From positions 1 to 64,000 of IMG/VR virus record IMGVR_UViG_3300022562_002256: a DNA stretch of 64,000 nt, one strand, 5' to 3'. Positions 560 through 57,514 of this stretch are shown in pieces (position 1 is the first letter of the stretch; the number at the start of each line of letters is the position of its first letter). The position numbers and the translations under genes are program-made. Under the pieces are notes generated by a model that did no database searches, was not told where the DNA came from, and saw only the letters and a program-made list of their open reading frames with translations. This DNA is from a virus.

Positions 560-575
560 TGCGAATTTTGTGCCA
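560..575 (-). promoter_or_regulatory. sigma-54-like -24/-12 site (weak -12)
   Basis: TGGCAC-AAAAT-TCGCA on the minus strand. The predicted start at about 549 is 2 nt before ATG 547. Its -12 half (TCGCA) departs from the others. Confidence 0.4.
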
Positions 576-699
576 TGACGCCCGTCACGGCCCCCTCCCA
601 GATGGACCGAGCAGTGGGCCCGCGATGACCGTAGGGTCGTGACGTCAAGGCCGCAAAAAGTATCGTGGAGCGACACGCCTCGCACGGCACCTCGCGCCA

Positions 700-1173
700 T
701 CAGCGCCGGCCTGGTGACGGCGCGAGGGTTGTGATGATGCCCCGGAACACGTGGGCCACCACCCATGGGCGGAGGGCGACGTGTGTGCCCAAGAACAACA
801 TCGGACACCTCGCCTCTAGACGAAAGATGAGCGCGCACTTGCCAGAGAACACGAACTGCACCGCATCGGGGACCGACCGCGCTGTGGCGTAGTTGATGGC
901 ATATTCCAAGGCGCGCCTGACGAGCGCCCGTTCTTCCTCGGGGAGGCGCTCCCACGCCGCCTCCCCTTCGGTCAAAAAAGTCTTGATGTGGCGCGCGACG
1001 CCTTGCTCGAAGCTGATGCGCTCGTCGCTGCGAGGGAAGTGGTCAAGTAGTTCAGCCAGCGCCAACACGTCGCCGGGGTGCTCGTCGAGGCTGTAGGCGG
1101 GGAACTCGACCCACTTGGATGCCAGAAGGCGATTGATGATGCGTTCCAGGGCGAGGTCGTCGACAACGTGCAT
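700..1173 (-). CDS. hypothetical protein, 157 aa
   Basis: I do not recognise a family. The protein is mixed helical and charged (runs such as ERLPEEERALVRRALEYA) with a hydrophobic C-terminal third. ATG 1173 is preferred because a promoter-like TGGCAC-N5-GTGCA ends 14 nt upstream and there is no Shine-Dalgarno. The upstream minus frame (1052-1522) runs into it; a one-base error in the CCCC run near 1225 would fuse the two into one longer gene, in which case the promoter would be internal. Confidence 0.6.
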   Translation of the reverse strand: MHVVDDLALERIINRLLASKWVEFPAYSLDEHPGDVLALAELLDHFPRSDERISFEQGVARHIKTFLTEGEAAWERLPEEERALVRRALEYAINYATARSVPDAVQFVFSGKCALIFRLEARCPMLFLGTHVALRPWVVAHVFRGIITTLAPSPGRR

Positions 1174-1522
1174 TGTGGAGCCGTGATGCACACGTCGTGC
1201 CAGGACGTAGCCGTGCTGGGGCCGCCTGTTCGCGCCGCGCGATATCGACCAACCGGCGCAGCCATGCCCCGCACGCGGCGTGGAGCACGTCGGGGTCGGT
1301 GAGCAGGCTGGCCTGAGCGGCGCCCCACCTCAGCCACAGCCTGGCGGCGTTGAGACGTCCATCGTCGATGGCGCGGTCGACTCTTCGGATGGCCCACCGG
1401 AAGTCGTTCCACAGCGCTGCTTGCGGTCGAGCGCGTTGTTGGCGCTCGAAGTTAGGCGACCAGTTGGTGATGACGCCAACGGCCAGCGTGAATGGACGGA
1501 TACGATCGGACGATTGTCGCAT
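1052..1522 (-). CDS. hypothetical protein, C-terminus uncertain
   Basis: Residues 1-80 look coding (RPQAALWNDFRWAIRRVDRA, then WLRWGAAQASLLTDPDVLH) but the last 40 residues are Arg/Pro-rich and overlap the next gene in another frame. The true gene probably ends near 1200 or continues into 700-1173 through a frameshift. ATG 1522 is the first plausible start. No family recognised. Confidence 0.45.
   Translation of the reverse strand: MRQSSDRIRPFTLAVGVITNWSPNFERQQRARPQAALWNDFRWAIRRVDRAIDDGRLNAARLWLRWGAAQASLLTDPDVLHAACGAWLRRLVDIARREQAAPARLRPGTTCASRLHNARCRRPRPGTHHQSPSGIQVGRVPRLQPRRAPRRRVGAG
1187..1202 (-). promoter_or_regulatory. sigma-54-like -24/-12 site
   Basis: TGGCAC-GACGT-GTGCA on the minus strand. 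Predicted +1 at about 1176, three bases before ATG 1173. It lies inside the upstream reading frame. Confidence 0.55.
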
Positions 1523-1570
1523 ACGCCAAATGTAACGCGACGGCGCCTGGTCGCAAGCATCGCTGTGGCC

Positions 1571-1599
1571 TTGACACGCGTCGCTGGCGGGTGTATGTT
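1571..1599 (+). promoter_or_regulatory. sigma-70-type promoter for the tRNA-like cluster
   Basis: TTGACA, 17-bp spacer, TATGTT. The predicted start is near 1606, about 55 nt upstream of the first tRNA-like gene (1660). Confidence 0.55.
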
Positions 1600-1659
1600 G
1601 TCGGTGTTGGTCGGTGGCCACAGCAACTCCCCCCAGGCGAGGTCGTCGACCAACATTGT

Positions 1660-1732
1660 AGCGCGGTGGTGTACTAGAGGCACACGAGGCTCATAACCTC
1701 GAGGACCGGGGCGGTTCCGGCGAGCGCTCCCA
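1660..1732 (+). tRNA. tRNA-Met-like (anticodon CAT), irregular T arm
   Basis: A clean anticodon arm CGAGG-CTCATAA-CCTCG gives anticodon CAT. The acceptor pairs AGCGC with GCGCT, and CCA is encoded at 730-732 of this kilobase (1730-1732). The acceptor stem has only five good pairs and the T arm lacks a canonical TTCRA loop and is about 3 nt short. Whether it is charged is uncertain. Confidence 0.5.
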
Positions 1733-1782
1733 GTTGACAATGCACGTGAGTTGTCACCTGTGCCTGGATTGATCACCAGGCA

Positions 1783-1851
1783 GAGCCATTCGTCTAGGTA
1801 GGAGGACCAGCCAAGAATGGACTGAGCCGGGTGCGAGTCCCGGATGGCTCA
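1783..1851 (+). tRNA. tRNA-like RNA with shortened anticodon arm
   Basis: The acceptor GAGCCAT pairs perfectly with ATGGCTC, and the T arm CCGGG-TGCGAGT-CCCGG is well formed. Between the D arm (GTCT/GGAC) and the T stem only 19 nt remain where 22-23 are normal, so no 5-bp, 7-nt anticodon arm can be drawn. Isotype cannot be assigned. Confidence 0.45.
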
Positions 1852-1864
1852 CGAGAAGCAGGTG

Positions 1865-1911
1865 TGGGCATCGCCTGGTGCACGGTGCCAGGAAGGGTTC
1901 AAAAGTGCCCA
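1865..1911 (+). ncRNA. minimal tRNA-like stem-closed element
   Basis: TGGGCAT and GTGCCCA close a 47-nt element that holds a CCTGG/CCAGG hairpin and a GGTTCAAAA T-loop-like segment. It resembles a tRNA reduced to acceptor plus one arm. A similar 27-nt element (GAGCAGC...GCTGCTC) follows at 1914-1940. Structure by eye only. Confidence 0.25.
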
Positions 1912-4395: not shown

Positions 4396-4411
4396 TGCAT
4401 AAAGCGTGCCA
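4396..4411 (-). promoter_or_regulatory. sigma-54-like -24/-12 site
   Basis: TGGCAC-GCTTT-ATGCA on the minus strand, predicted +1 near 4385, 27 nt before ATG 4358. Back-to-back with the plus-strand site at 4428. Confidence 0.5.
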
Positions 4412-4427: not shown

Positions 4428-4443
4428 TGGCACAGCGCATGCA
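4428..4443 (+). promoter_or_regulatory. sigma-54-like -24/-12 site
   Basis: TGGCAC-AGCGC-ATGCA, predicted +1 near 4454, three bases before ATG 4457. Confidence 0.6.
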
Positions 4444-5580: not shown

Positions 5581-5604
5581 TCATCTATGCACGGACCGTG
5601 CCAA

Positions 5605-6742: not shown

Positions 6743-6758
6743 AGCACGTATCGTGCCA
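6743..6758 (-). promoter_or_regulatory. sigma-54-like -24/-12 site
   Basis: TGGCAC-GATAC-GTGCT on the minus strand. Predicted +1 near 6732, 13 nt before ATG 6719, which has its own Shine-Dalgarno. Drives the operon 6719-4798. Confidence 0.55.
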
Positions 6759-9651: not shown

Positions 9652-10037
9652 GCGGAGCGATGATCGAGCGGCACGTTTTGGAAGCAGCGGCACAGGCCGG
9701 ATTTGAGGCCACACGCGTGCTTTTTGACCTCACTGACGGTCAAGGTCGGCCACGGTGGAGCGAAGCCAGCGACGACCTGCAAAGTGGCGCGATTTTTTTG
9801 GCACAGTCCGTGCTAGAAACCGACTCGTCGAGCGGCGCTCACGACGCGGAATGCACTAAACTTCGCAACGACGGGTGGCGCTGGGGTCCTGTGTGGGATG
9901 GGGTGGCGAAGTTGTCGCCTTCGTTGGTGCCATATGCCGACTTGCTAGCGGACCGCCGCGCAGCAGGCGAGTTGTTCCGCAACGTCGTGGTGGCGTTTGT
10001 GGCGGCGTGGACCGCCGCCACCGAGGTGCCGGCATGA
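9648..10037 (+). CDS. RyR-domain protein, 129 aa
   Basis: The C-terminal half follows the RyR domain signature: NDGWRWGPVWDGVAKLSPSL then VPYADLL and a long final helix. The N-terminal 60 residues are helical. RyR domains occur in ryanodine receptors and also in prokaryotic and viral proteins, where their ligand is largely unknown. Part of the overlapping cargo cassette beside an exoribonuclease. Confidence 0.6.
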   Translation: MSGAMIERHVLEAAAQAGFEATRVLFDLTDGQGRPRWSEASDDLQSGAIFLAQSVLETDSSSGAHDAECTKLRNDGWRWGPVWDGVAKLSPSLVPYADLLADRRAAGELFRNVVVAFVAAWTAATEVPA

Positions 10038-13292: not shown

Positions 13293-13737
13293 TTATTGCA
13301 CGATGCGTGCCCGCTCGGCATACACTGCCCGGGCTCTGGTGCGCTGCTCTTCGAGCGCCCGGATGATCGGCGCGACCGTCTTGCGGACCAAGGCGTTCTG
13401 CCACCACGCCCCCTTCCAGTGGCCGCGCCGCTGGAGAAAGAATACGCCGTCGCACCATCGGATGCGCCGCCCTTCCTCCATCTCGTAGATTTCCCACTCG
13501 AGGCGTGCGGCGTTGTGGTTGGCGCCCCAGACGAAGCCCCCGGCACGGAGCGCCGCCGACATCTGAGCGGCGGCGTTGGAGCGCGGCGTTGGACCAAGCC
13601 CTTGTTCGCAGCGCTTGCGTGCGACCGCGAGCCGCTCGTCGCGACGCGATGTCGCCTCGCGCTTCGGCCTCGCGGGCCTGCTCTTGTATGCGGTGGGTGA
13701 CCGCCTGACGTTCCTGGAGTGCGTAGTCGTTCATCAT
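13293..13737 (-). pseudogene. hypothetical gene with an apparent frameshift near 13645
   Basis: From ATG 13737 residues 1-32 look coding (MNDYALQERQAVTHRI...). Near GCGTCGCGACGAG the coding pattern moves to the adjacent frame, which reads DERLAVARKRCEQGLG and continues through GGFVWGANHNAARLEWE to the stop at 13293. A single missing base explains it. Alternatively a separate gene starts at ATG 13562. Preceded by TGAGGT. Confidence 0.5.
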
Positions 13738-14030: not shown

Positions 14031-14259
14031 ATCAGACGACACTTGCACGCTCCGTGCCACCGGCGTGGTGCCTGGATCATGCCAGCGCGCGCCGTGTGTT
14101 CAGCCTGGTTCTTCTGGACCATCGGCCCCTCAGCGCACCGTTTGCACGTCGACTTTGGCGAGTTGGTGAAGTTGGCCACTCCGCTGCCTGCGATCTAGCA
14201 CTCAAGTGGCTGCCATCAGGTGCCGGTAAATTCTGCCGGCCAAACGCAAAACGTGCGCC
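14031..14259 (-). repeat. family A regulatory module, copy A4
   Basis: On the minus strand: a GCCGGCAGAATTTACCGGC hairpin, the block CAGCCACTTGAGTGCT (as AGCACTCAAGTGGCTG on plus, 14199-14214), a CGTGCAAACGGTGCG block and a TGGTCCAGAA block, ending in the sigma-54-like site 14044-14059. The same order occurs at 23620, 49851 and 57258. Confidence 0.7.
14044..14059 (-). promoter_or_regulatory. sigma-54-like -24/-12 site
   Basis: TGGCAC-GGAGC-GTGCA on the minus strand, predicted +1 near 14033, ATG 14030. Confidence 0.65.
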
Positions 14260-14880
14260 TTAGTCCCCGCCGTGACCGTGCCCCCAGAGGTTGCCGTGTC
14301 GCGAGTCCTCGCTGCCGTAGCCGTCATCATCCAAGTCGGGTAGCGGCATAGCCATCGCGCGGGCGGCGAACTCGGCGGGGGTTATCATGGCCCGAAGAGC
14401 ATCGGCCGCTTTGCGCTCCTCGGCGGCGAAGTCCTCTCTGGTGGCCACTACGGCCAAGTGCCCGGCGCCGATGGCGTTCATGGCCACCGCCTCGAGGATG
14501 CCAAGAAACCGGTCGCAACAGTCACGCACGGGGTCACGCCGTCTACCCCACGGCTTCGGTAGCGCCTTAATGAAGGCTCGCACCACGGGGATAGCCGCCC
14601 GGGCGCTCAACTCATTGTCGATCGGGCCCGGGACAGCGCACCCAAGGCGCTCGATGTATTGGCGGCCGATCTCGGCGAGTCGTGGTGCAAACGCTGCCAT
14701 GAGGCTGCGGCTGTGGCCGTCGACCCAGTGCGCCAGCCAGCGCATGTGGGACAGGTCGGTGCACTCGCGCCACACCGTCGCGGCGTCGCGGTCTCCAACC
14801 CACGTCCACAACGTGCCGTCTGCGCCGTGCGCCCGAAGAAAGTTGGCGAAGTTCACGCTGAACTCGGGTCGAATGTTCAT
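14260..14880 (-). CDS. hypothetical protein, 206 aa
   Basis: ATG 14880 overlaps the stop of 14877-15227. Helical with conserved-looking aromatic residues (WTWVGDRDAATVWRE, MRWLAHWVDGH) and a Gly/His-rich tail (NLWGHGHGGD). No domain assigned. Confidence 0.65.
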   Translation of the reverse strand: MNIRPEFSVNFANFLRAHGADGTLWTWVGDRDAATVWRECTDLSHMRWLAHWVDGHSRSLMAAFAPRLAEIGRQYIERLGCAVPGPIDNELSARAAIPVVRAFIKALPKPWGRRRDPVRDCCDRFLGILEAVAMNAIGAGHLAVVATREDFAAEERKAADALRAMITPAEFAARAMAMPLPDLDDDGYGSEDSRHGNLWGHGHGGD

Positions 14881-15241: not shown

Positions 15242-15257
15242 TGCACACGCCGTGCCA
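15242..15257 (-). promoter_or_regulatory. sigma-54-like -24/-12 site
   Basis: TGGCAC-GGCGT-GTGCA on the minus strand, predicted +1 near 15231, ATG 15227. Confidence 0.65.
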
Positions 15258-15502
15258 CCTGTGGGGGCGTGGTGTTCAGTGTTGGCTGTGGCGTTATGCC
15301 ACGGATTTGTTCCAGGGTCGCGCGCCGACAGCCACTTGAGTGCTGGTTCTGCGACGTGTGGCGGTCTGCCACACCGTGGCAACATGCCACTCCCCGCCGG
15401 CGCGGCTAAGTGCTCGAAATCATTGACGCGACGTGGATCAGCACCGATCCACACACGTAAGGCAACACACGGCCAGCGCGCCGCGGGGCTACCACACCAC
15501 GA
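15258..15502. repeat. family B regulatory module, copy B1
   Basis: Between divergent sigma-54-like sites. Holds three palindromes of the GTGGC/GCCAC type: GTGGCG-TTA-TGCCAC (15288-15302), GTGTGGC-N5-GCCACAC (15356-15374) and GTGGCA-ACA-TGCCAC (15376-15390). It also has the CAGCCACTTGAGTGCT block shared with family A and GTGGATC-N6-GATCCAC (15433-15452). About 190 bp are nearly repeated at 46681-46890. Confidence 0.7.
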
Positions 15503-15518
15503 TGGCACGGACAGTGCA
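15503..15518 (+). promoter_or_regulatory. sigma-54-like -24/-12 site
   Basis: TGGCAC-GGACA-GTGCA, predicted +1 near 15529; the gene at 15550 has AAGGGAG, so this transcript is not leaderless. Confidence 0.6.
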
Positions 15519-17137: not shown

Positions 17138-17153
17138 TGCAAGCGCCGCGCCA
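17138..17153 (-). promoter_or_regulatory. sigma-54-like site with TGGCGC
   Basis: TGGCGC-GGCGC-TTGCA on the minus strand, predicted +1 near 17127, ATG 17125. One mismatch in the -24 half. Confidence 0.45.
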
Positions 17154-39875: not shown

Positions 39876-39916
39876 GGGGGCTCCTTGGTGCGCGTTGATG
39901 ATAACACCGCCTCAGC

Positions 39917-39944
39917 TTGACACCACTCCCCGCGGTGCTACATG
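39917..39944 (+). promoter_or_regulatory. sigma-70-type promoter, leaderless
   Basis: TTGACA, 16-bp spacer, TACATG; ATG 39952 is 8 nt after the -10, so the transcript would be leaderless. Confidence 0.55.
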
Positions 39945-39951
39945 GCGCACC

Positions 39952-40599: not shown

Positions 40600-40670
40600 C
40601 CCAACGGTCACCGCGGGGGCGTCACAATTGCTGATGTCAGAGGCATCATGAAGCACAGCGCCGAGAGTTT

Positions 40671-41279: not shown

Positions 41280-42840
41280 CGAACAATCTCCCTTGCCGCT
41301 TCTCGGTCTCGACGGCCTTGGGCATCTCGTCGCCCGCCATGAACGCGGCCACGGCTTGCGGCGTGCATGCTTGCCACGCGGTGAGTCGAGCGCGGGTGAT
41401 CACGCACGCCTCGACACAGAACCCCGCCCCGACCCACTCCACCCCGCGCATCCACGCGGCAATCGCGAACGCGCCCGACCCAGCGCACAGATCACCAACG
41501 CGCCGCGCCCCCGTGAGCTTGAGCAGGTGCAGGCACAGCCCGAGCGGCTTGACCGTGGGGTGCACGTTGCCCTGTGCTCGCGTCTGGGCTTGCTTTCTAG
41601 TCGCTGACACAATGACGTCCGGGTTCGTGGCATCAGGTGTTACCTCCCATTGCTCCCTGGTCACCTGGTCGAATCCGAACGGATTGTCACGGTTCGCTCT
41701 CCAGTATAGCTCCTCGCAGCCGAAGTGCCGCTCAGATGGGCCGCACTTGCCGACGAATCGGAACGGCGGCGTTTGGCTGAAAAAGCGCGAGGGCCCGCCT
41801 TCGTCGGCGTGGCCGTACCCAACGCTATCGCTCGAGCTTCCACCGTACCCCTGGCTACCGGCGCTGTTGTTCCTCGGTCTATCCGTTGACACGCTGTGCC
41901 CTCCCTGCGCGTCGACCTCCGCCATCGGACAGCACCACCCCCCAGGCTCGCCACATTCGCACCGAGGAGCGGGGCCGCCTGATTCTGCGAGCCACGTCGA
42001 GCCGCACGTCTCGCAGCCTGCGACGCAGCGATAGGCGGGGATGGTCTCGGTTCCGTCGACAGCAAAACCATCCCATTTGTCCGCGCGCACGGTCGAGCCC
42101 ATGGCGATCTTGAATGCGCCCGCCTGTTCTCCGGTATGGTCTCTCGGCTGCGAGCCCCTAACCTTCCGCGCCCCCGTCCGCTCACAACGCTCATCGTGCG
42201 AGAATATCACGTTGCCAGGCCGGCCGCCGTCGGTGTGTCGCGTCGGTTCCTTGTACAGAGCCCCACCCGACGCGAACAGCACGCCCGGGCCGCCTGTGTG
42301 CGACCGCAACTCGCCCCTCGGAACCCGTACGGCGTCCACGTCGAGACGCACCGCGCCCGGACTCTTTGTAGCCACGAGCCAGTGCTCGGCCAGCGGTCGG
42401 AGCGTATGGCGCCCTTTCGGCCAGCCTTGCGCCTGGATGTGCGTGATGACATCTCGGACGAAGAACCCAGCGAGCCGCAGCGCCTCAGCCGTCCAGTCCG
42501 ACGTGCGCGGTATGGCCCACACGATCGCGATGCCCTCGGGCGTCAGGCAGTCGTACGCCGCCGCAAACCGCTCAGCCCAGTACATCACGAACGCGTGGCG
42601 CTCTTGGATGTCACGGAGGTGCGCCTTCGACCGCGCGGGGAAGGGGGGCTCGTAGTGGGTGGCAGGGTTCGACCTGTCCCAACGCCTACTCATGAATGCG
42701 ATCCCGGCCGGGGGGTCGGTCACCACCGCGTCAAGCGGAAGTTCCTCGCCGGCTGCGATCCGCGCGGCCAGAGCGCGATACACATCGAGGCAGTCCCCGT
42801 GATAGAGGCGTACGTTTTGTGCTCCAAACCAGGGGATCAT
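41272..42840 (-). CDS. N4/N6-type DNA methyltransferase with zinc-ribbon insertion, 522 aa
   Basis: Catalytic motif IV is VVTDPPAGIAFM (residues 38-49), a DPPA variant of DPPY. The C-terminal SAM site is NVHPTVKPLGLCLHLLKLTG then DLCAGSGAFAIAAWMRGVEW. Between them (about 270-330) sits a Cys-rich insertion CETCGSTW...CECGEP...CC that looks like a zinc ribbon. Probably modifies phage DNA against restriction; target sequence unknown. ATG 42840 overlaps the upstream stop. Confidence 0.8.
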   Translation of the reverse strand: MIPWFGAQNVRLYHGDCLDVYRALAARIAAGEELPLDAVVTDPPAGIAFMSRRWDRSNPATHYEPPFPARSKAHLRDIQERHAFVMYWAERFAAAYDCLTPEGIAIVWAIPRTSDWTAEALRLAGFFVRDVITHIQAQGWPKGRHTLRPLAEHWLVATKSPGAVRLDVDAVRVPRGELRSHTGGPGVLFASGGALYKEPTRHTDGGRPGNVIFSHDERCERTGARKVRGSQPRDHTGEQAGAFKIAMGSTVRADKWDGFAVDGTETIPAYRCVAGCETCGSTWLAESGGPAPRCECGEPGGWCCPMAEVDAQGGHSVSTDRPRNNSAGSQGYGGSSSDSVGYGHADEGGPSRFFSQTPPFRFVGKCGPSERHFGCEELYWRANRDNPFGFDQVTREQWEVTPDATNPDVIVSATRKQAQTRAQGNVHPTVKPLGLCLHLLKLTGARRVGDLCAGSGAFAIAAWMRGVEWVGAGFCVEACVITRARLTAWQACTPQAVAAFMAGDEMPKAVETEKRQGRLFDD

Positions 42841-43037
42841 TCTCGCACCAACTCCCGCGCTTGCCGGGCGGCCTCGCGAGCGGCGCGGCGGTGGATCTTG
42901 GCGACGTCCGCGACTGGCTGCCACGGCTCGCCGGCCTTGAAGGCCAGCTCGGCCCGAACCTCGGCGCACCCGCGGAGGTATGCCTGCGTCACGGCCTCGC
43001 GCAGCAATCGTCGGAGCCTCCGTTCGATCGCGGTCAT
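42837..43037 (-). CDS. hypothetical helical protein, 66 aa
   Basis: Basic helices (IERRLRRLLREAVTQAYLRG; AARQARELVRE). ATG 43037 overlaps the previous stop and its own stop overlaps the methyltransferase start, so it is co-translated with it. Unknown role. Confidence 0.6.
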   Translation of the reverse strand: MTAIERRLRRLLREAVTQAYLRGCAEVRAELAFKAGEPWQPVADVAKIHRRAAREAARQARELVRE

Positions 43038-43234
43038 CCGCCACACCCGGGACACATCCCCGACCCGTCGCACTGCTCGCAGTCAGGGTTGTCCCCGCCG
43101 CAGGGGCAGCCCCCCTCGTCGTGGCAGACCAGGCAGTCGATCGGCAGCGGGCTGGGTGGGGCGTCCACCGATGGCTTCCCGAGGAAGGCGTCCACTGCCG
43201 CCCGCGTGGCGTTGGGGTCAGGCCATGTGCTCAT
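43034..43234 (-). CDS. small DnaJ-type zinc-knuckle protein, 66 aa
   Basis: The C-terminal 35 residues hold CLVCHDEG, CPCGGDNP, CEQCDGSG and CPGCGG knuckles, similar to 34677-35117. ATG 43234 is chosen because ATG 43243 abuts the TATAGG -10 box. First gene of the methyltransferase operon. Confidence 0.55.
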   Translation of the reverse strand: MSTWPDPNATRAAVDAFLGKPSVDAPPSPLPIDCLVCHDEGGCPCGGDNPDCEQCDGSGMCPGCGG

Positions 43235-43243
43235 GTCGGTCAT

Positions 43244-43271
43244 CCTATACGGAGGTGGGGCTCGCGCGCAA
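43244..43271 (-). promoter_or_regulatory. sigma-70-like promoter of methyltransferase operon
   Basis: TTGCGC, 16-bp spacer, TATAGG on the minus strand, 10 nt before ATG 43234. Confidence 0.4.
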
Positions 43272-43462
43272 CGTGCGCACGAACACCCCACCGCGCAACT
43301 GTGCCCCATCCCGTCGCTACGGCGCCGCCAAGCGTGGCTGAGGCACCGGACGGGCTGCCACAGCCAAGCGGGCACCAAACCCGCGCCACAGGCCCACCAC
43401 GGGGCGGTGACGGTCACCGTGTGGCGCCGACGGGCCCGCCGACTCCCCGTCGGCGAATCGTC

Positions 43463-43492
43463 TTGGTTGCCGACTCCACAAAACTGTGCTAA
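43463..43492 (+). promoter_or_regulatory. candidate promoter of fibre gene 43537
   Basis: TTGGTT, 18-bp spacer, TGCTAA. The rest of the gap 43272-43536 holds a CCGACGGG/CCCGTCGG hairpin near 43425-43455 and no convincing frame. Confidence 0.35.
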
Positions 43493-43536
43493 GCGCGGGG
43501 GCGACACCCGCCGTCACCCAGCCAACCGAGGACCCC

Positions 43537-44991
43537 ATGCCCAGTCCACCCGACCTCGCGCTCGACCCCAACGACGCCAAGCTCGCCGCTGGCACCAAGC
43601 CGGACGGTACGCCGAGTTCGATCGCGCTCGATGCAGACGGCCAACTCCTCGTCGGCGGCAGTGCGCTGCCGGCTGGCGCCGCAACCAGCGCGTTGCAGGG
43701 CGCTGGGCTGCCCTCTGCGTTCACCGATGGCGGTGGCGTCAAGGTCGGCATCGTCGACGCTTTGCCATCAGGAACAAACACCATCGGCGCAGTCACCGGT
43801 GCCGCTGGCACAGCGCTCGCGACCGAGGATGGGGTCCAGTCGCTTCGGAACCCGTATGGCGAGCTGCGACTGGAGACTGACGCTCTCCAGTATGCCAACT
43901 TCGCGGCCGGTCTCGCCGCTGCGAAGGTGACCCCGAATGTGACCGGCTCGGGCGCCGTGGTGTGGGACACCACCTATCGCTGCGCTCGCCTGTCGGTCGG
44001 AACCGCCGTGGGCACGGCTGTAATTTTGGCTAATACGCCGGGAACCTATCGAACGGACGACGTCAGCGGGCTGGAGGTCACCTTTTTCGTAGGTCCCGAG
44101 CAGGACGCCGCTCTTTTCATCGAAATCGGTGTCATCGCCGACCACGGCCTCGCGAGCTTGTTCCGGTTGACAGACGGCCGCGTGTACATCGTGATTGTCC
44201 ATGCGAGTCTCCCTGGAGGCGAGGAGGCATTTGAGATCACCGACGCCGTGGCGGCTGTCGATTTTGCGGTGGGATGGCATACGATCTCGCTGCGGACCGC
44301 TGGGGAAGGCGGCTGGTGGAGCGAGCTCCGGATTGATGGTATTGTGATTTTTGGTGGGTTTGCACCCCCCGGCCCGATTGTGAGTGCGGCGTGGCATGAA
44401 ACTCGTATCGGTGTGCGTGTGCGATCGACGGCGACCACGCCAGCCGGCGGTTCTGTCTACGTGCGAGGATTTTCGTTCACCACGAACAAGGTGCCGCCGA
44501 TTTCGATCGCGACGGTCACGCGCCCATCGGTGTCTGTTGGAACAACCCAGATCGGCTTGTTCGGCGTCGCCCCGGCCACGACCGTGAATGGGGTGTTCTG
44601 TTATCAGCCGGCCTGGCCAATCGAGTTGGCGCTGGTGACCGAAGCGACGTCGGGGATGGCTTTGTATGCCTATGAAGTAGCCCCATCGGCGCCCGATCCG
44701 TTCAACGGGACCGGAGCGTGGACCGCGGTGCCAGGAACCACGCTCGTGGCGAACACGACGCCCAGTGTCCTGCCTGCCGATCTTGTCTTGCCCGGCGCGA
44801 TATTGCGAGGGATAGCTACACTGTCGAACGACTTGGATCTTTCCGCCATCTACGGGCCCGGGCGTCTGGCGCTCTACGTCCCCCCGCTCGTGACGGCCAG
44901 TTCGCGCCTTGTTGTGGTAGCAGCTCGGGCCAGTGGCGCCGCCGCGCAGACGACCGGCGTTATGTCAATCGGAGTGCAGTACACCACGTAG
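43537..44991 (+). CDS. fibre-like structural protein, 484 aa
   Basis: Starts with the fibre-like modular pattern ALDPNDAKLAAGTKPDGTPS and IALDADGQLLVGGSALPAGA, VKVGIVDALPSGTNTIGAV, commonly found in phage minor tail proteins. The middle 200 residues form a jelly-roll/lectin-like beta domain (TISLRTAGEGGWWSELRIDG). GAGGA precedes ATG 43537. A receptor-binding or structural role is inferred. Confidence 0.6.
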   Translation: MPSPPDLALDPNDAKLAAGTKPDGTPSSIALDADGQLLVGGSALPAGAATSALQGAGLPSAFTDGGGVKVGIVDALPSGTNTIGAVTGAAGTALATEDGVQSLRNPYGELRLETDALQYANFAAGLAAAKVTPNVTGSGAVVWDTTYRCARLSVGTAVGTAVILANTPGTYRTDDVSGLEVTFFVGPEQDAALFIEIGVIADHGLASLFRLTDGRVYIVIVHASLPGGEEAFEITDAVAAVDFAVGWHTISLRTAGEGGWWSELRIDGIVIFGGFAPPGPIVSAAWHETRIGVRVRSTATTPAGGSVYVRGFSFTTNKVPPISIATVTRPSVSVGTTQIGLFGVAPATTVNGVFCYQPAWPIELALVTEATSGMALYAYEVAPSAPDPFNGTGAWTAVPGTTLVANTTPSVLPADLVLPGAILRGIATLSNDLDLSAIYGPGRLALYVPPLVTASSRLVVVAARASGAAAQTTGVMSIGVQYTT

Positions 44992-45529
44992 ACCAATGGC
45001 ACGCCGCGGGGCATCGCATGGCGCGTGCCACTCCCACCCCCGCGATGCGCCCACGGTGCCCAGCAGCGCGGAGCGTGGCTGACACCGCTTGAAGGGTTGT
45101 CCCCTCCGTCACCACGTCGTCGATGAGGAGCACGTCCTCATGCGCGCCCAACCCATCCGGCTGATACGCCAGTGAGCGCAGGTGCTCGGCGATGGGTAGC
45201 CCGCCCCGCCCCTCTCGGCGACGCAGCCTCGATGACTCGACGTCGTACGCGCGCACCACTGGCTCCGCCACCCGCGAACCGCCACCCAGCCCGACCAGGG
45301 CTTCCGCGAGGGGCCGAAGGGAGGGGCGCGTCCACGAGGAGCGGGGCACCGGCACAACCACGCCACCGAACGAGGGAATGCACGCCGCAAGCGCCCGCGC
45401 CGAGCGGAGGGTGGCGTCGCGCTCCCCCGCTTTCAACGCCTCAATGATGTCCCGTGCGGCGGCGGTGCGCTGGCTCAACCCGCGGTAGCGCCGCGACAGG
45501 TAGGGGAGAGGAGCGACGATGTTGAGCAT
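44960..45529 (-). CDS. ComF-like phosphoribosyltransferase, 189 aa
   Basis: The PRPP loop VLLIDDVVTEGTTLQAVSAT (near 128-147) is complete, and the N-terminal part VVVPVPRSSWTRPS, LRPLAEALVGL matches ComF-type PRTases. The N-terminal zinc finger of ComF is missing. Start fixed by the site at 45542-45557. Role could be nucleotide salvage or DNA uptake-derived; unknown here. Confidence 0.7.
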   Translation of the reverse strand: MLNIVAPLPYLSRRYRGLSQRTAAARDIIEALKAGERDATLRSARALAACIPSFGGVVVPVPRSSWTRPSLRPLAEALVGLGGGSRVAEPVVRAYDVESSRLRRREGRGGLPIAEHLRSLAYQPDGLGAHEDVLLIDDVVTEGTTLQAVSATLRAAGHRGRIAGVGVARAMRCPAACHWSTWCTALRLT

Positions 45530-45541
45530 ACGCCAGCAACT

Positions 45542-45557
45542 TGCACGATCCGCGCCA
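45542..45557 (-). promoter_or_regulatory. sigma-54-like site with TGGCGC
   Basis: TGGCGC-GGATC-GTGCA on the minus strand, predicted +1 near 45531, ATG 45529. Confidence 0.5.
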
Positions 45558-45572
45558 CAACGGCTCAAGTGG

Positions 45573-46361
45573 TCAAGCCGCAGCGAACCGCTTCCGTCGC
45601 TCGGCGACCATCGCGTCTGCATACTTCGCGGCACTCTCTGCCATCGTCTCAAATGCGAGCGGAACGGGAAACCGCGCGTCGCGGCCACCATCAACCGGCT
45701 ACGTCGCGGCAAGCGCATTGAACACCTCTGCCTCGGTCAGAGGCCGCCCTGCGGTGTTGATGCGTCGGAAGACCTCACGCGCAAGCGCCTCGTCGCCGTG
45801 GACGACGAGCACGCCGACCCGTGTCTCGTGGAGTCTCGCCGCCGCTGCGTAAAGACGAGTCCCGCGGTCTCTAGCCAGGCGCCACGCTGTGTCGTCGGCC
45901 GACGACACAGACTCGTACAAGCCAGTTAAGAATTCTTGACATGCAGCGGTTTCAAGGACCGCGCGCACGGGGGCGTACCGCGCGGGGGGGCGTACCGCGC
46001 TCGCCGGCGCATCGTGTTCTGCCACCACGTATCGATCCTCGTCCATGTCGAATCGAACCGGTGACGTGCCATCCCATGCACGTGCGAGAGACGTGACCCG
46101 CTGCTGACCATCGATCAGCCACGCCGTGGGACCGGTCTGCCAGACTACGATCGTGCCCACGGGCACGCCACGGTCCAGCGAGTCCCATAACGCGGCCTCG
46201 TCCGCCGGTTCCCAGCAGAAGGGGCGCTGAAATGCGGGCACGCGCCACCCGCCTGCTGCGGCGTGCTCGGCGACGTGCGCGACCCACAACGCTGCCGGCT
46301 CAACGCCACCCCACAACGAGTGCCGGCGTGTGGGAGGCGGGGTATGTTTGGGCCGACTCAT
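45573..46361 (-). CDS. DUF262 (GmrSD N-like) protein, interrupted by in-frame TAG
   Basis: ATG 46361 overlaps the previous stop. PAFQRPFCWEPADEAALWDS, VPVGTIVVWQTG, and WLIDGQQRVTSLARAWDG are the DUF262 nuclease motifs (IDGQQR is catalytic). EVFRRINTAGRPLTEAEVFN follows. A TAG sits at 45699-45701; 41 plausible in-frame codons (ARFPVPLAFETMAESAAKYA) follow to TGA 45573. Either readthrough, a CAG-to-TAG change, or a short gene ending at 45699. DUF262 proteins act in restriction of modified DNA. Confidence 0.65.
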
Positions 46362-46648: not shown

Positions 46649-46664
46649 TGCACAGGCCGTGCCA
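46649..46664 (-). promoter_or_regulatory. sigma-54-like -24/-12 site
   Basis: TGGCAC-GGCCT-GTGCA on the minus strand, predicted +1 near 46638, ATG 46636. Confidence 0.65.
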
Positions 46665-46936
46665 ACCGAGATGCCCCTGCCGGCGAGGTGTTCAGTGGTT
46701 TGGTGGTGTTCAGTATTGGCTGTGGCGTTATGCCACGGAGTTGTTCCGGGATCGCGTGCTGACAGCCACTTGAGTGCTGGCTCTGCGATGTGTGGCACTC
46801 CGCCACACCGTGGCAACATGCCACGCCCCGCCGACGCGGCCAAGTGCTCGAAATCATTGACGCGGCGTGGATCGACCCCGATCCGCCACCGTAAGGCAAC
46901 ATACGGCACGCCCCCAACAACGCCACAACCACCAGG
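46665..46936. repeat. family B regulatory module, copy B2
   Basis: Near copy of B1 with the same three palindromes at 46722-46736, 46790-46808 and 46810-46824, the CAGCCACTTGAGTGCT block and GTGGATC-N6-GATCCGC (46867-46886). Flanked by divergent sigma-54-like sites. Confidence 0.7.
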
Positions 46937-46952
46937 TGGCACGGCGCGTGCA
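46937..46952 (+). promoter_or_regulatory. sigma-54-like site reading into noncoding DNA
   Basis: TGGCAC-GGCGC-GTGCA, predicted +1 near 46963. No open frame follows, so it may produce an RNA from 46963 toward tRNA-Tyr. Confidence 0.6.
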
Positions 46953-49732: not shown

Positions 49733-49748
49733 TGCACGCACCGTGCCA
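49733..49748 (-). promoter_or_regulatory. sigma-54-like -24/-12 site
   Basis: TGGCAC-GGTGC-GTGCA on the minus strand, predicted +1 near 49722; ATG 49679 is 43 nt further, an exception to the leaderless rule. Confidence 0.6.
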
Positions 49749-49850
49749 ACAGGCAACGCGGGGTCGCCATGCCCACAAACCAGCGGCGATCTGGCGGAGT
49801 TGGCACTCCGCCCCGAACTTCGCGCGCTTGGATGACGACACATGGCGCGC

Positions 49851-50107
49851 ACTTCTTGCGTTTAGCCGGCAGAATTTACCGGCACCTGATGGCAGCCACT
49901 TGAGTGCTACATCGTGAGCGCCACCGTAAGCGGATTCACCAACCTGCCAAAATCGACGCGCAAACGGTGCGTGTTGGGATCATAGTCCAGAATCGGCGGA
50001 GCGCCCGGCTGGACTCAGCCCCCGAAACCACGACGGTTTCGATATGGCGACGTAGAGCACCGTTGGCACGGTGCGTGCAAGTGCCGTCTGGCATTAGGAG
50101 GCTGAAC
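49851..50107 (+). repeat. family A regulatory module, copy A2
   Basis: CACTTCTTGCGTTTAGCC, GCCGGC...ACCGGC hairpin, CAGCCACTTGAGTGCT, GCCACCGTAAGCGG, CGCGCAAACGGTGCG and ATAGTCCAGAAT in order, ending in site 50064-50079. The gap 49749-49850 shows nothing else. Confidence 0.75.
50064..50079 (+). promoter_or_regulatory. sigma-54-like -24/-12 site
   Basis: TGGCAC-GGTGC-GTGCA, predicted +1 near 50090, then AGGAGG and ATG 50108. Confidence 0.65.
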
Positions 50108-50605: not shown

Positions 50606-50621
50606 TGGCACAGCACGTGCA
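50606..50621 (+). promoter_or_regulatory. sigma-54-like -24/-12 site
   Basis: TGGCAC-AGCAC-GTGCA, predicted +1 near 50632, ATG 50635. Confidence 0.65.
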
Positions 50622-50903: not shown

Positions 50904-51068
50904 TCATCCCTCATACCGGGTCGTCTCCCAGCCAGGTTGTCGCGGCACCGCTGGGGGTTCCTCCCCTTGCTCCCATCGACGGAAGACCTCGTCCATCTCG
51001 TCATCGGTTGGGTTATCACCGAGCCAAGCGAGCCATCGGTTCAGACGGGCAGCGGCATCGTTGCTCAT
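50904..51068 (-). CDS. 54-aa acidic protein coupled to SbcDC
   Basis: ATG 51068 overlaps the nuclease TGA (ATGA). RLNRWLAWLGDNPTDDEMDE and VFRRWEQGEEPPAVPRQ look coding. The 92 nt before 50904 hold nothing recognised. Confidence 0.55.
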   Translation of the reverse strand: MSNDAAARLNRWLAWLGDNPTDDEMDEVFRRWEQGEEPPAVPRQPGWETTRYEG

Positions 51069-54000
51069 GCCGGCACCATAACCACGGCGTCGACCATGGC
51101 TAGGGTCGGCGGGCTGTCCGGCGGCACAAGGAGCACCGTGCCGAGCCCCAACTCCCTAACCGCGGCGCGCAGCATGCTGAACCACGCCTCAACGCATGGC
51201 CCCCGCAGCGGGCCTGATGTCTCGTCAAAGGCGAGGGTCGCCCCCGGCACCGCGCCCCACCGTTCGATCACTACTCCCGCTGTCGCCAGCGCGAGCGCGG
51301 TGCTCAGTAGCGCTCGCTCGCCTTTGGAGCACGCTCGCACCTCTCGTTCGCGTTGGTCCGGATGGCTGATCGCGATCCACCGCGCCTGCTCAATCGAGCG
51401 CTTACCCCGTGCGGCCGTCCGTGTTCCACGGTACTCGATCGACCACCCCGCACCATCGGCTGCGCGTAACAAGTCGGTTGCGATCTCGGCGATCTCCTCC
51501 CCGGCCAACTCCATCTCGAGCGCCTGGACCCCGTCACGGCCGAGTGCTTGCGCCAGCTCGCCCGCGTCCTCGGCCCGCCGCTCCAGTTCTTCGGTGGCCT
51601 CACGGACTCGGGCAGCCCTCGCTGCGGCATCCCGCTCCCGGGCGAGGCGGTCTACCGCAAGCGCAAGCCGTGTCGCGGCGACGGAGGCGCCCCGCGCCGC
51701 GTGTTCTACGTCAGCTTGGCCCACCGGGGCCGGCTCGTCACCAAAAGCCTGTAGCACGGCCGAAGCGTCGGTGTGTCGGGCTGTCGCGTCGGCGAGTTGG
51801 TCGTCGAGGAGGGCCACGCGCTCAGCCGCTCGGATGGCCTGGGTCGAGCGGGTCTGGGCGGCGACCAGCGCGCGATGACGTGCTTCCAGCGAATGCCGTT
51901 CCGTCGCCACCTCGTCGATGCTCCTCAATGCCGCTGCGCGCGCGGCCCTGAGCGGGGCGAGTTCGTTCGCGATGGTGACAAGACGCGCGGCGATCCCGCC
52001 GCGCGTTCTCTCAGCGGTGGCGATGGCAGCGTCGATGTCGGCCACCAGGCGAGTCGGTGCACGTGCGAGTCGTTCCCGTGCTGCGGCAAGTCGCGCAGCG
52101 GCGCTGGCAGCGCGTGATGTCAGGTCCACGATGTTCGGATGGGTGTAGGCATCATCGGCGGCGATGGCACGGCGAGAGCGTCGCCTCACCTCGGCCACGC
52201 TGCTCGATGCCACGTCGGGAGATGCCGCGACAATCGCTGAGGCGGCGATCCGGCCGATGTCGGTGAGCGCGGTGCGCAAGGGGGTCACGCGCCCGGTCTG
52301 AGCGACGTGCGTGGCTGCTTCCAGCGCGGCGGCGGCGGCTCTCTCGGATGCCTCCAACTCCGGGAGGCTCTCCCGCAGCCTCTCGGCACCCTCGGCCTGG
52401 GTTCGCTCCGCACGCAAAGCGTCGAGGCGGTGGTCGATGTCTGCAAGCGCGCGGGCTGCCTCGTGTTCGGCGTCGCGACTGGAGCGAATCGCCTCGTCGG
52501 CTGTGCTGACGTCAGCTCGCAAAACGCTCTCCCGCTGGCGCAGCACATCGAGCGCTTCAACCACCTCCTCGATGTGTTCGGGGGGGGGCGCTGCGCAATC
52601 GGCCGCTTGTCTTGCCGCCGCGAGCTCGGTGGTCAGCCGTTCGACTCGCACTGCCGCCGCGTCGGCGGTGGTGCAAAGCGCGCGCCACTGAGTCCACCGC
52701 GCCGCGTCGACGCGGGCTTGAGCGGCGGCGCAGTCGGCGGTGTGGCTTGCGGCCGTCGCATCGACAACCGCTCGTTCGGCACCCGTAACGTCGACGGGAC
52801 CGATCGCTGTGCTCTCTGTGCGCTTAGCGGCGACATCCTTGTCGATCGCGGCCCGCGCCGCCCGTGCCGCCGCTGCCCATGCTTCATAGTTCCCGGCGCC
52901 CAGGATGCCCAATAACGCGGCTTTCAGCCCCGAGTCGTACAGCGTGCCGATCCCATCGCTCCCGTCCCATAGAAAGGCGAACGCGAGCAACAGCACCGGG
53001 TCGGGCAGGTGCTGGCGCGCCCACTCACGGAACGCCTGGCGCCCGCCGACGAACGTGGCGGCGTCCTCGCCCAACGGGCAAACACGCACGGTGCCACCGC
53101 CATCGGTCATTTCGTGATGGATTGTCCATGCCCCTGTGGCGGTGACAACCTCCACCTCGAGATACGGGTTGGGGCCGGTGACCATCCTGTCGAACGCGCC
53201 GTGTGTGGGGCTTTCCTCTCGCAGCGCCGCGAGCATGAGACCGAGCAGCGTGCTCTTCCCCGCCCCGTTCCCGCCCGCGAGTGCCACGATCGGCGGCATA
53301 TCGCGCACCAGATACTCGGCCTCGCCGACGAAAGGGCCGAGCCCCCGACACGCTACACGCTCGAATCGCACCAGTCCCCCAGCGTCTTCCGGGGATGTCG
53401 CCACCATCTCATCGAGCATGGCGAGCACCCGCTCCCGACGTGCCGGCCGTCGACCAATGGCTGTCCAATAGGCGTCGAGCCTATCGTGGACGGACGGAAC
53501 CTTGTCGATGCCCGCCGCACGCGCACGGGTGACCCGTTGGGGCACAGGTTCAAGTTTGACCGCGACCGCCCCCGCGGCGAGGATGTCGTCTCGCGCCGAC
53601 TCGGCGGCGGCCACGATGCACGCGCGGTTGGCGTCGGTGGTGGTGTAACGAAGCCGCACGTCCGCACCTCGACACGACGCCAGCGTCGGTGTCGCGTCGC
53701 CTGCAGCGTGCTCTCGCCCGTAGGACAACACCAGACCCGCCCCGGCTACCCAGTTGCCAACAAGCAGAACCAGCGGCGTGGCGGGGGCGATGCGCCGCTC
53801 GAACGATACACGACGCCCGTCGACGTGAACAAGTACATAGCCCTTTGGCCCCAGCTCGCCGTATGTCGTGGCATACGGCGCCCCCGGGTAGCAGGCTGGC
53901 CGCCCCCCGATGAGCCAATCCTGCGCCGCGTGGACGTGGCCGAGTAGGTAAGCGTCGGCCGCCGCGCGAGCCAGGTCGTCGTTTGTCACGTCGAGGTCGC

Positions 54001-54559
54001 CCCGCCCTTGCGCCGGCTGGTCGTTCGACAGCCGTGCCCCGGCGACCATGGCATGCCCCACCAAGATGCGCGCGGCGTCAGTGCCAACGATGGCTGCCCC
54101 CAAGTCGTCCAGGATCGCGCGCATCTCTTCGCGAAGCGCAGCCGTTGTCGGTGTGCCCCCCCGCGCCTGGACGCGTCGGAGCAAGTCTGCACGCCGGAGA
54201 TGAGGCAGACAGGCAAGGCGCACGCCGGCCACGTCTATCACTCCGGGCTGCTCTACCACCGTAACGGGGTGCGCCGTGCCGAAGGAGTCGAGGATCGCCA
54301 GGTCTCGTTCGACGTCGTGATTGCCCGCGACCACGACGAGCGGGGCTGTGCGGGTGGCTTCTCTGCAAAACCACCGCGCCACGAGCCGCTCGTCGGGGCG
54401 CGAACCGGAGTGATACACGTCCCCCGCGACTACGGTGGCGGCGACGTTCGCTCGCGCGGCGTCATCAAGGATCCACTCCAAGATGCGTTGGCACTCGGAC
54501 AGCCGACCACCAGGCCGCGCCGAGATGTGAATGTCCGCGAGCGCGGCGATGGTCGTCAT
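51065..54559 (-). CDS. fused SbcD-SbcC (Mre11-Rad50) nuclease-ATPase, 1164 aa
   Basis: Residues 1-330 are the SbcD/Mre11 phosphoesterase: ADIH (8-11), VVAGDVYH, VVAGNHDVER, LVGHAMVAG and LLGHVHA metal ligands. From about 395 the SbcC/Rad50 part begins: RFERVACRGLGPFVGEAEYL, Walker A LAGGNGAGKSTLL (near 435). Then comes a long coiled coil without a CxxC zinc hook, the signature CSKGERALLSTALALA and Walker B TLAFDETSGPL. Normally two separate genes. Processes DNA ends in recombination. Confidence 0.85.
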   Translation of the reverse strand: MTTIAALADIHISARPGGRLSECQRILEWILDDAARANVAATVVAGDVYHSGSRPDERLVARWFCREATRTAPLVVVAGNHDVERDLAILDSFGTAHPVTVVEQPGVIDVAGVRLACLPHLRRADLLRRVQARGGTPTTAALREEMRAILDDLGAAIVGTDAARILVGHAMVAGARLSNDQPAQGRGDLDVTNDDLARAAADAYLLGHVHAAQDWLIGGRPACYPGAPYATTYGELGPKGYVLVHVDGRRVSFERRIAPATPLVLLVGNWVAGAGLVLSYGREHAAGDATPTLASCRGADVRLRYTTTDANRACIVAAAESARDDILAAGAVAVKLEPVPQRVTRARAAGIDKVPSVHDRLDAYWTAIGRRPARRERVLAMLDEMVATSPEDAGGLVRFERVACRGLGPFVGEAEYLVRDMPPIVALAGGNGAGKSTLLGLMLAALREESPTHGAFDRMVTGPNPYLEVEVVTATGAWTIHHEMTDGGGTVRVCPLGEDAATFVGGRQAFREWARQHLPDPVLLLAFAFLWDGSDGIGTLYDSGLKAALLGILGAGNYEAWAAAARAARAAIDKDVAAKRTESTAIGPVDVTGAERAVVDATAASHTADCAAAQARVDAARWTQWRALCTTADAAAVRVERLTTELAAARQAADCAAPPPEHIEEVVEALDVLRQRESVLRADVSTADEAIRSSRDAEHEAARALADIDHRLDALRAERTQAEGAERLRESLPELEASERAAAAALEAATHVAQTGRVTPLRTALTDIGRIAASAIVAASPDVASSSVAEVRRRSRRAIAADDAYTHPNIVDLTSRAASAAARLAAARERLARAPTRLVADIDAAIATAERTRGGIAARLVTIANELAPLRAARAAALRSIDEVATERHSLEARHRALVAAQTRSTQAIRAAERVALLDDQLADATARHTDASAVLQAFGDEPAPVGQADVEHAARGASVAATRLALAVDRLARERDAAARAARVREATEELERRAEDAGELAQALGRDGVQALEMELAGEEIAEIATDLLRAADGAGWSIEYRGTRTAARGKRSIEQARWIAISHPDQREREVRACSKGERALLSTALALATAGVVIERWGAVPGATLAFDETSGPLRGPCVEAWFSMLRAAVRELGLGTVLLVPPDSPPTLAMVDAVVMVPA

Positions 54560-56251: not shown

Positions 56252-56263
56252 GCCGCGCGACCA

Positions 56264-56279
56264 TGCACCATCCGTGCCG
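56264..56279 (-). promoter_or_regulatory. sigma-54-like site with CGGCAC
   Basis: CGGCAC-GGATG-GTGCA on the minus strand, predicted +1 near 56253, ATG 56251. Confidence 0.5.
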
Positions 56280-56348
56280 CTCTGGTGGTGACGCCACCGC
56301 CGCTAGCACGCGACCGCGAAAAATCAACTGGATCGACGGTGCACCATG

Positions 56349-56364
56349 TGGCACACTGCGTGCA
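56349..56364 (+). promoter_or_regulatory. sigma-54-like -24/-12 site
   Basis: TGGCAC-ACTGC-GTGCA, predicted +1 near 56375, ATG 56377. Confidence 0.65.
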
Positions 56365-56376
56365 TGAGGTTGAGCC

Positions 56377-56772
56377 ATGGAACCGAACGTCGCCACCACG
56401 GCCCCCGCACGAAGGGGCCGCCCCCGTAAGCCCGCCCCGCCCCCTCCGGACCCCGCTCGGCTCGAAGCCGCTCTCGAGATCGCCAGAAGCCTCGAGCCCG
56501 GGTCACTGGTGTTTGTCGAGTATGTCGCTGCGTCAGCGGCGCACCCCAGCCCCGCCGCGCTGCGGTCGGTTGCGGCTGGATTCCCCCAGAGTTACTACGT
56601 CGGGACATACCTCGGGTACCACCTAACGGCCGCCGGGCACGTTGTCCTGCGGCTGGAGGTCATCAACCGAGGGGGCGAGCGCCGCGCCATCAACCCGCTC
56701 AAGGGCGACTTGCGCGCGGTCCGGGTCATACACCCCGCCCCGCCCCCCGACGCTATGCCCATTGCGTCGTGA
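56377..56772 (+). CDS. hypothetical protein with AT-hook-like N-terminus, 131 aa
   Basis: ARRGRPRKPAPPP (residues 10-22) is an AT-hook-like basic Pro segment. The rest is alpha/beta (RLEAALEIARSLEPGSLVFV, HVVLRLEVINRGGERRAINP). May bind DNA. First gene of the 56377-57930 run. Confidence 0.6.
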   Translation: MEPNVATTAPARRGRPRKPAPPPPDPARLEAALEIARSLEPGSLVFVEYVAASAAHPSPAALRSVAAGFPQSYYVGTYLGYHLTAAGHVVLRLEVINRGGERRAINPLKGDLRAVRVIHPAPPPDAMPIAS

Positions 56773-57020
56773 TGCCCGCCCGCTGGTACATCCCTGGGTC
56801 TGCGATTGCTGCGGCAGTCCGACGAGTGGCACCGGGTAAGCGGCCTCCGCTCGCCCTCCTTGCCCCGCTGGAGCGGCTTTGTCTGCGTGCCGCGGGGAGA
56901 CTGCCTCACGTTCCCATGGAATCTGCCAGGACCCCCGGCCGTGCGAGCGCGGGGTACAAGAAGGCGCTCGTGAAAGCCATCAGGCGTGCGTGCTGTGCCC
57001 CCGACTTACGGAGGTGGTAA
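56769..57020 (+). CDS. hypothetical basic protein, 83 aa
   Basis: GTG/ATG start overlaps the previous stop. Basic, helical (ALLAPLERLCLRAAGRLPHV, GYKKALVKAIRRACC). Unrecognised. Confidence 0.55.
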   Translation: MMPARWYIPGSAIAAAVRRVAPGKRPPLALLAPLERLCLRAAGRLPHVPMESARTPGRASAGYKKALVKAIRRACCAPDLRRW

Positions 57021-57021
57021 G

Positions 57022-57249
57022 ATGGACAGGTTGCCTCGCGGCGAGTTCGTGCAAACGTGGTTTGACGGAGGTCGAGACGGATCCGGGTTCACATTCGGCG
57101 TCATCGAGGCCAGCGGGCCCACGGCGTTCGTGGTCAGATGGGAAAGCGGTAACCGACACCGCCGCAAACACGGGCATCCCGACATCCACCGCATCACCGA
57201 TCCAGAGTTGCGCCTCGAGGCGGCGCGCACACTGAAACGAACGACCTAG
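57022..57249 (+). CDS. hypothetical protein, 75 aa
   Basis: GGAGG precedes ATG 57022. Small beta domain (FVQTWFDGGRDGSGFTFGVI, GPTAFVVRWESG) of SH3-like look. Unrecognised. Confidence 0.6.
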   Translation: MDRLPRGEFVQTWFDGGRDGSGFTFGVIEASGPTAFVVRWESGNRHRRKHGHPDIHRITDPELRLEAARTLKRTT

Positions 57250-57257
57250 ACCCAAAC

Positions 57258-57514
57258 GCACATCCTGCGTTTAGGCGGCAGAATTTACCGGCACCTGGCG
57301 GCAGCCACTTGAGTGCTACGTCGTGAGTGTCACCGTAAGCGGATTCACCAACTAGGCAAAATCGACGCGCAAGGCGTGCGCGCTGGGCCAACTTTCCAGA
57401 CTTGGCGGGCCGCGCGCGTCGGCCGGGCGCCGTCAAAACATCGCGCAAATTGAGGGATCGCCCCAAGAGCACAAGCGCCGATGGTTGGCACGCCACGTGC
57501 AAGTAGGTTCGGAC
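57258..57514 (+). repeat. family A regulatory module, copy A3
   Basis: Same block order as A2 (CTGCGTTTAGGCGGCAG, TTTACCGGCACCTG, CAGCCACTTGAGTGCT, CACCGTAAGCGG), ending in site 57486-57501; the central block is more diverged. Confidence 0.7.
57486..57501 (+). promoter_or_regulatory. sigma-54-like -24/-12 site
   Basis: TGGCAC-GCCAC-GTGCA, predicted +1 near 57512, ATG 57515. Confidence 0.65.

Follow-up and report, generated by a model that had tools for sequence, protein, structure and literature searches.

Sigma-54-like -24/-12 motifs closely preceding start codons across a 198-kb myovirus genome

RNA polymerase carrying sigma-54 (RpoN) reads bacterial promoters of the -24/-12 type, in which a T at -14 is usual but not invariant. 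This polymerase cannot open DNA alone, and needs an AAA+ activator sensing stress, nitrogen or envelope state. Literature searches returned no phage regulon built on sigma-54 promoters. In layout, the nearest analogue is the SAS/ESAS system (start-associated sequences) of Cluster K mycobacteriophages (PMC3203893), where SAS includes an AGGAG and, at 3-7 bp from the start, takes the place of a ribosome-binding site. In the Thermus phage phiYS40, as cited in PMC4842269, leaderless genes carry a motif that resembles an extended -10 box, of the sigma-70 class. Here we analyse a stretch of 64,000 nucleotides, called the window, which is the first 64 kb of the virus record IMGVR_UViG_3300022562_002256 (198,045 bp, G+C 66%), together with the whole record, in which a bipartite motif, TGGCAC-N5-DTGCW, recurs before genes.

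Like SAS/ESAS, this is an asymmetric motif found before mainly non-structural genes at a short fixed distance from the ATG, and some copies are accompanied by an upstream inverted-repeat element; unlike SAS, it lies 12-13 nt from the start and has no Shine-Dalgarno (SD) complementarity. As in the cited account of phiYS40, the position of the phage promoters would let the mRNA start at the start codon, but the blocks are here of the -24/-12 type. With bacterial sigma-54 promoters the motif shares the TGGCACG block, the GG-N10-GC phase and A or T at -11, and it would probably also share a start 12 nt past the GC; it differs from them by a G instead of a T at -14 and by what would be almost leaderless starts.

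An earlier note, made from the window alone, had described about 28 dispersed sites of this kind, 20 of them as best copies, and had proposed to compare their density with that of shuffled sequence. The comparison bears it out: the window contains 24 exact copies, whereas shuffled controls (dinucleotide shuffles) average 0.32 and never exceed 4; for the whole record, the 51 copies compare with an average of 0.82 and again at most 4. All 20 best copies are where the note had placed them, 19 being exact and one (26392) having one mismatch; five exact sites, 4396-, 5588-, 6743-, 9799+ and 33486-, were missing from that list. The weaker members of the 28 fared less well. When two mismatches were allowed, 126 matches were found against 94, a small excess, meaning that weak sites are mostly due to chance unless they are tied to an ATG.

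The geometry of the motif is strict, and its spacing fixed, as the note had claimed. The reversed pattern gave 2 matches, compared to 51 for the true motif. With TGGCAC and KTGCA as blocks, a spacing of 5 bp was found in 41 copies, and spacings of 2-4 and 6-9 bp in 0-1 copies each. The conserved GG and GC lie 10 bp apart, in the sigma-54 phase and on the strand of the gene, with strict orientation. Only 3 of the 51 sites fall inside called genes, although called coding sequence makes up 59% of the record (both values depend on a rough gene caller). Divergent site pairs are 12 in number, against a single convergent pair. The proteins encoded downstream, mostly 50-200 aa long, show no mutual homology at E 1e-3; the motif thus did not spread merely as part of a single gene family. 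Two stretches of the genome, 70-100 kb and 180-198 kb, are devoid of sites and contain replication and structural genes; the motif-linked genes would form an early class. A search for a late-gene promoter motif by k-mer enrichment gave nothing clear.

In 30 of the 51 copies an ATG begins exactly 12 or 13 nt past the last motif base, where 0.02 are expected from shuffles, and the mirror side of the motif has no ATG peak at these distances. If the transcription start is placed 12 nt past the C of the GC, following sigma-54 numbering, a leader of 2-3 nt results. Consistent with such leaders, the 12-13-nt spacers have no SD signal: their SD energy is -2.88, the same as after shuffling (-2.88), compared to -5.0 for other genes (shuffled, -4.2), and an AGGAG core 3-7 bp from the start, as in SAS, is absent from them. 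Twelve sites have an open reading frame (ORF) starting 19-60 nt away; there the mean SD energy is -4.4 and about 4 of the 12 have a strong SD such as AGGAGG, a comparison in which only the direction of the difference is reliable, the windows being of unequal length. Together, ATG distance and SD pattern suggest that transcription may begin 12 nt past the GC. We conclude that the sites are very probably functional, oriented promoters, and that most of these genes are likely to have near-leaderless starts.

The consensus reads TGGCACG[G]nn[C]GTGCA[A/T], with a core TGGCACG-N4-GTGCA at -26 to -11. TGGCAC was fixed by the search pattern, and the G at -20 that completes the sigma-54 block TGGCACG is present in 42 of 51 copies. 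To learn which changes are tolerated, copies with mismatches were collected through an ATG at 12 or 13; compared with other ATG offsets, the excess was clear among copies with no mismatch or one, and weak among those with two. In the nine ATG-linked copies with one mismatch, the change lies at -26 (3 copies), -22 (1), -14 (3) or -11 (2), and never in the GG or the GC. The changes at -14 break the potential GCAC/GTGC stem or dyad with no matching change in the partner, which counts against readings of the motif as an RNA hairpin or a symmetric operator.

A second element, which we call E, was first seen as words shared upstream of the sites. It is intergenic, about 135 bp long, and a profile search found 12 copies in the record, belonging to two subfamilies, A and B. 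From these 12 copies, 20 motif copies face outward, the nearest gaps being 79-98 bp in 14 of 21 cases; all motif copies lying 300 bp or less from an E point away from it. Subfamily B, with four copies (genome 15273-15420, 46707-46854, 106341-106488 and 157227-157374), has three GTGGC-N5-GCCAC dyads per copy and holds 12 of the 13 such dyads of the record. Bacterial sigma-54 systems, too, have a dyad-bearing element some 80-100 bp upstream, which divergent promoters often share, and E could, on this likeness in layout and with roughly even chances, be an enhancer bound by an activator. E was also considered as an RNA element, for which there was no support: no covariation was seen in an RNA model and no Rfam match was found. 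No match to E was detected in any other locus examined. The near-leaderless geometry and the enhancer-like element are additions to what the earlier note had described.

Within the window, copies of subfamily B lie at 15273-15420 (-), between the divergent promoters 15242- and 15503+, and at 46707-46854 (-), between 46649- and 46937+. Subfamily A copies are found at 14128-14263 (+), 68 bp upstream of promoter 14044-; at 23609-23742 (-), between the divergent promoters 23514- and 23840+; at 49845-49977 (-), between the divergent sites 49733- and 50064+; and at 57253-57387 (-), 98 bp upstream of promoter 57486+. A different repeat, of 56-63 bp, occurs in four places (window ~33790-33850; genome 116248-116308, 172845-172900 and 190949-191011) with 71-91% identity, and is apparently unrelated to E.

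Smaller arrays of the motif with an ATG at 12-15 nt were found in other viral records: 11 in G041 (some with TTGCA), 11 in G011 (several of these are probably due to chance), 4 in G009, 3 in G016 and 5 in G015. The present record (G000) and G041 share relatives of capsid, portal, DnaB and DUF4942 proteins, and G011 is related to G016; the two pairs have little similarity to one another, so the motif with its ATG geometry is present in different viral lineages. In G041 (locus L141, positions 26001-46000) eleven copies follow one another on the same strand, each ahead of a small gene, and the ATG is mostly at 15 nt instead of 12-13. The DUF4942 protein, encoded at genome 135201-136019 (+) here and at L141:4850-5638 (-) in G041, is 48-49% identical between the two; in the present record its ATG lies 12 nt past a weaker motif copy, CGGCACGGCCGTTGCA. 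No RpoN was found in the other array records, and their sole Sigma54_activat match, in G015, looked by eye like a ComM/YifB-type protein and not an enhancer-binding protein. In Myxococcus phage Mx8, a phage of a sigma-54-rich host, a single site was found, inside the genome and without the ATG geometry. In bacteria, genomes chosen for holding one match had 1-3 copies each. Myxococcota were prominent among the genome matches (32 of 379 Myxococcota genomes with a match, few in the control); as no genome had more than 3 sites, motif density did not serve to identify a host. In Burkholderiales (Ramlibacter, Polaromonas and Hydrogenophaga; loci L074, L096, L116 and L128) a motif followed at 12 nt by an ATG precedes a similar ABC-transporter-ATPase-like gene, a layout that suggests a cellular near-leaderless promoter of the sigma-54 type.

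Which polymerase reads the sites? There is good support for the large promoter regulon of sigma-54-type geometry that the note proposed; that host sigma-54 polymerase reads it is inferred. No phage RpoN (Pfam DBD and CBD) was detected in the record. Searches for Sigma54_activat gave nothing beyond chance Walker-A matches, with no GAFTGA in a plausible ORF. No Pfam match to RNA polymerase families was obtained among the largest proteins of the record, all those >600 aa included, and no NADFDGD-type motif was found in the record. Sigma-70 region 4 gave four matches, at 22671-22862-, 34261-34389-, 78348-78515+ and 95998-96156+. The first belongs to a 262-aa sigma-70-family factor with regions 2 and 4 (22641-23429, -), behind promoter 23514-, and the second to an ORF with a region 4 match only (34213-34599, -). 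Sigma-70-family genes or fragments are also present at genome 77556-78608 (+) and 95491-96246 (+), and four is an unusually large set. Two blocks separated by just 5 bp are not what a sigma-70-type factor would be expected to recognise. Since the record lacks a detectable phage RNA polymerase or RpoN, sigma-70 fits the motif poorly and array records without region 4 exist, host sigma-54 is the most economical reader, and we regard host sigma-54 RNA polymerase as the probable one, with some reserve.

Several observations weigh against this attribution. At -14, where sigma-54 promoters have the T of TTGCW, the 51 copies have G in 44, A in 6 and T in 1, in line with the note's remark that G mostly replaces the first T of TTGCA. 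Canonical TTGCA copies with a near ATG are mostly single per viral record, among the matches listed. None of the bacterial genomes searched has more than 3 such promoters or approaches the density of the phage. As no activator gene was found in the record, dependence on a host activator has to be assumed. Only 20 of the 51 sites are near an E copy, and identity across the subfamily B module, with the flank on the promoter side included, is 79-93% over >200 bp, so part of the E layout reflects cassette duplication. The phage also departs from bacterial sigma-54 systems in that its single 198-kb genome has about 50 copies, that neither RpoN nor an activator was found in it, and that most of its sites are without an upstream element. 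The G at -14 and the lack of a phage RpoN or enhancer-binding protein leave room for another recogniser.

Such a recogniser could be a dedicated factor, of phage or host, reading near-leaderless promoters and resembling sigma-54 only in its recognition sequence, with the G at -14 of those 44 copies as its signature. The unusual number of sigma-70-family matches in the phage speaks for it, as does the occurrence of GTGCA arrays in several viral records while the TTGCA copies listed are mostly single. However, the 5-bp gap between the blocks is ill-suited to -35/-10 recognition by sigma-70-family factors, G041, G011, G009 and G015 have no sigma-70 region 4, and no gene family common to all array records was found, some of these being only partly read. 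We hold this explanation to be rather unlikely, though to be kept in mind.

The note had also mentioned operators, because GCAC-N5-GTGC is partly palindromic. A dimeric regulator would then bind these half-sites, set at a constant distance from the start codon and lying over promoters that otherwise went unrecognised. But the outer bases are asymmetric, the ATG is on one side only, and in the ATG-linked copies with one mismatch -14 varies while its mirror position (the C of TGGCAC on the -20 side) is constant; the 20 bp upstream contain no other conserved promoter element. Strict orientation and an asymmetric tolerance of change make such an operator improbable. About as improbable is an mRNA element just before the start codon, a short hairpin or a translation signal comparable to the start-associated sequences of mycobacteriophages. 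The fixed ATG distance would suit it, and GCAC-N5-GTGC could form a 4-bp stem. Yet an A or T at -14 breaks the stem with the partner unchanged, the spacer has no SD signal, sites with a distant ATG exist, several with their own SD, and divergent pairs around a shared element suggest a function at the DNA level. Finally, a promoter for a phage polymerase, another suggestion of the note and here taken as one for a single-subunit, T7-like enzyme, is very improbable: a promoter repeated near many genes is typical of such phages, but no polymerase family match was found among the largest proteins of this terminally repeated record, and G+C-rich bipartite blocks with GG-N10-GC phasing are atypical of T7-like promoters.

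In the preferred reading, that of host sigma-54, promoters of the -24/-12 type would control genes throughout the phage, most of them small. Transcription would begin about 12 nt past the GC, 2-3 nt before the ATG, giving mostly near-leaderless mRNAs; where the ATG is farther, an SD site is often present. The sites would most likely be read by the host RpoN polymerase and opened by a host AAA+ activator, for which E, usually 79-98 bp upstream at 20 sites, may serve as enhancer.

The individual sites of the window are as follows. Candidate promoters with an ATG at 13 nt are TGGCACGACGTGTGCA (1187-1202, -), TGGCACAGCGCATGCA (4428-4443, +), TGGCACGGAGCGTGCA (14044-14059, -), TGGCACGCGGTGTGCA (23514-23529, -; the ATG is that of a 24-aa ORF, followed by the sigma-70-family gene), TGGCACAGCGCGTGCA (23840-23855, +), TGGCACAGCACGTGCA (50606-50621, +), TGGCACGCCACGTGCA (57486-57501, +) and the divergent pair 37155-37170 (-) and 37425-37440 (+), both TGGCACGGTGCGTGCA. 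The ATG is at 12 nt for TGGCACGGTTCGTGCT (24443-24458, +), TGGCACGGCGCGTGCA (25490-25505, +), TGGCACGGCCTGTGCA (46649-46664, -) and TGGCACACTGCGTGCA (56349-56364, +), and at 14 for TGGCACGGCGTGTGCA (15242-15257, -); for TGGCACGGTCCGTGCA (5588-5603, -) a GTG is at 13.

Longer distances were seen for TGGCACGCTTTATGCA (4396-4411, -; ORF start 37 nt downstream, divergent with 4428), the promoter-like TGGCACGATACGTGCT (6743-6758, -; ATG about 23 nt downstream, SD-like AGGAG), TGGCACGGACAGTGCA (15503-15518, +; ATG at 31 with an SD), TGGCACAGGACGTGCA (33486-33501, -; ATG at 23 with AGGA) and a further TGGCACGGTGCGTGCA (50064-50079, +; ATG at 28, strong SD AGGAGG). The exact copy at 49733-49748 (-) has a short ORF starting 53 nt downstream; other exact copies lie at 9799-9814 (+), 32665-32680 (-) and 46937-46952 (+).

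Copies with one mismatch and a near ATG are GGGCACGCATCGTGCA (13297-13312, -; 13 nt, 206-aa ORF), TGGCGCGGATCGTGCA (45542-45557, -; 12 nt, 189-aa ORF) and CGGCACGGATGGTGCA (56264-56279, -; 12 nt, 155-aa ORF, divergent with 56349). A copy with two mismatches and the canonical TTGCA, TGGCGCGGCGCTTGCA (17138-17153, -), has an ATG at 12 of a 112-aa ORF. The one-mismatch copy of the earlier list at 26392-26407 (+) has no ATG at 12 or 13 and is doubtful.

The record has a 144-bp direct terminal repeat and so is likely to be complete. By Pfam and PHROGs matches the virus is a myovirus: a Mu-like head module (portal, protease), tail sheath and baseplate J were recognised, as well as DnaB, RecD2, SSB and a DNA clamp. 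No relatives were found in viral_contigs with the major capsid and portal proteins, and named phages gave no near DNA matches of 15 kb. In the window, 51065-54559 (-) encodes a 1164-aa protein that combines a calcineurin-like phosphoesterase domain with an ABC-type Walker region and may be a fused SbcD/SbcC-like nuclease. A protein encoded at genome 167611-168705 (-) has a weak IS1/IS66 transposase match.

If host sigma-54 is the reader, tens of phage genes on such promoters would couple infection to host physiology, for which we found no description in the literature. The phage would also be a rich natural source of sigma-54-type promoters with G at -14, and its example would suggest that -24/-12 promoters can yield leaderless mRNA in a systematic way. 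Should the reader be something other than sigma-54, a hitherto unknown recognition factor with sigma-54-like specificity would exist, which is at least as surprising. Our overall picture, for which we see about even chances, is that of a phage that commits a class of its genes to the host sigma-54 polymerase, with phage-borne enhancers shared by divergent promoters, near-leaderless mRNAs, and its own sigma-70-family factors for other genes. With smaller versions in several other phages, this would be a previously unseen strategy.

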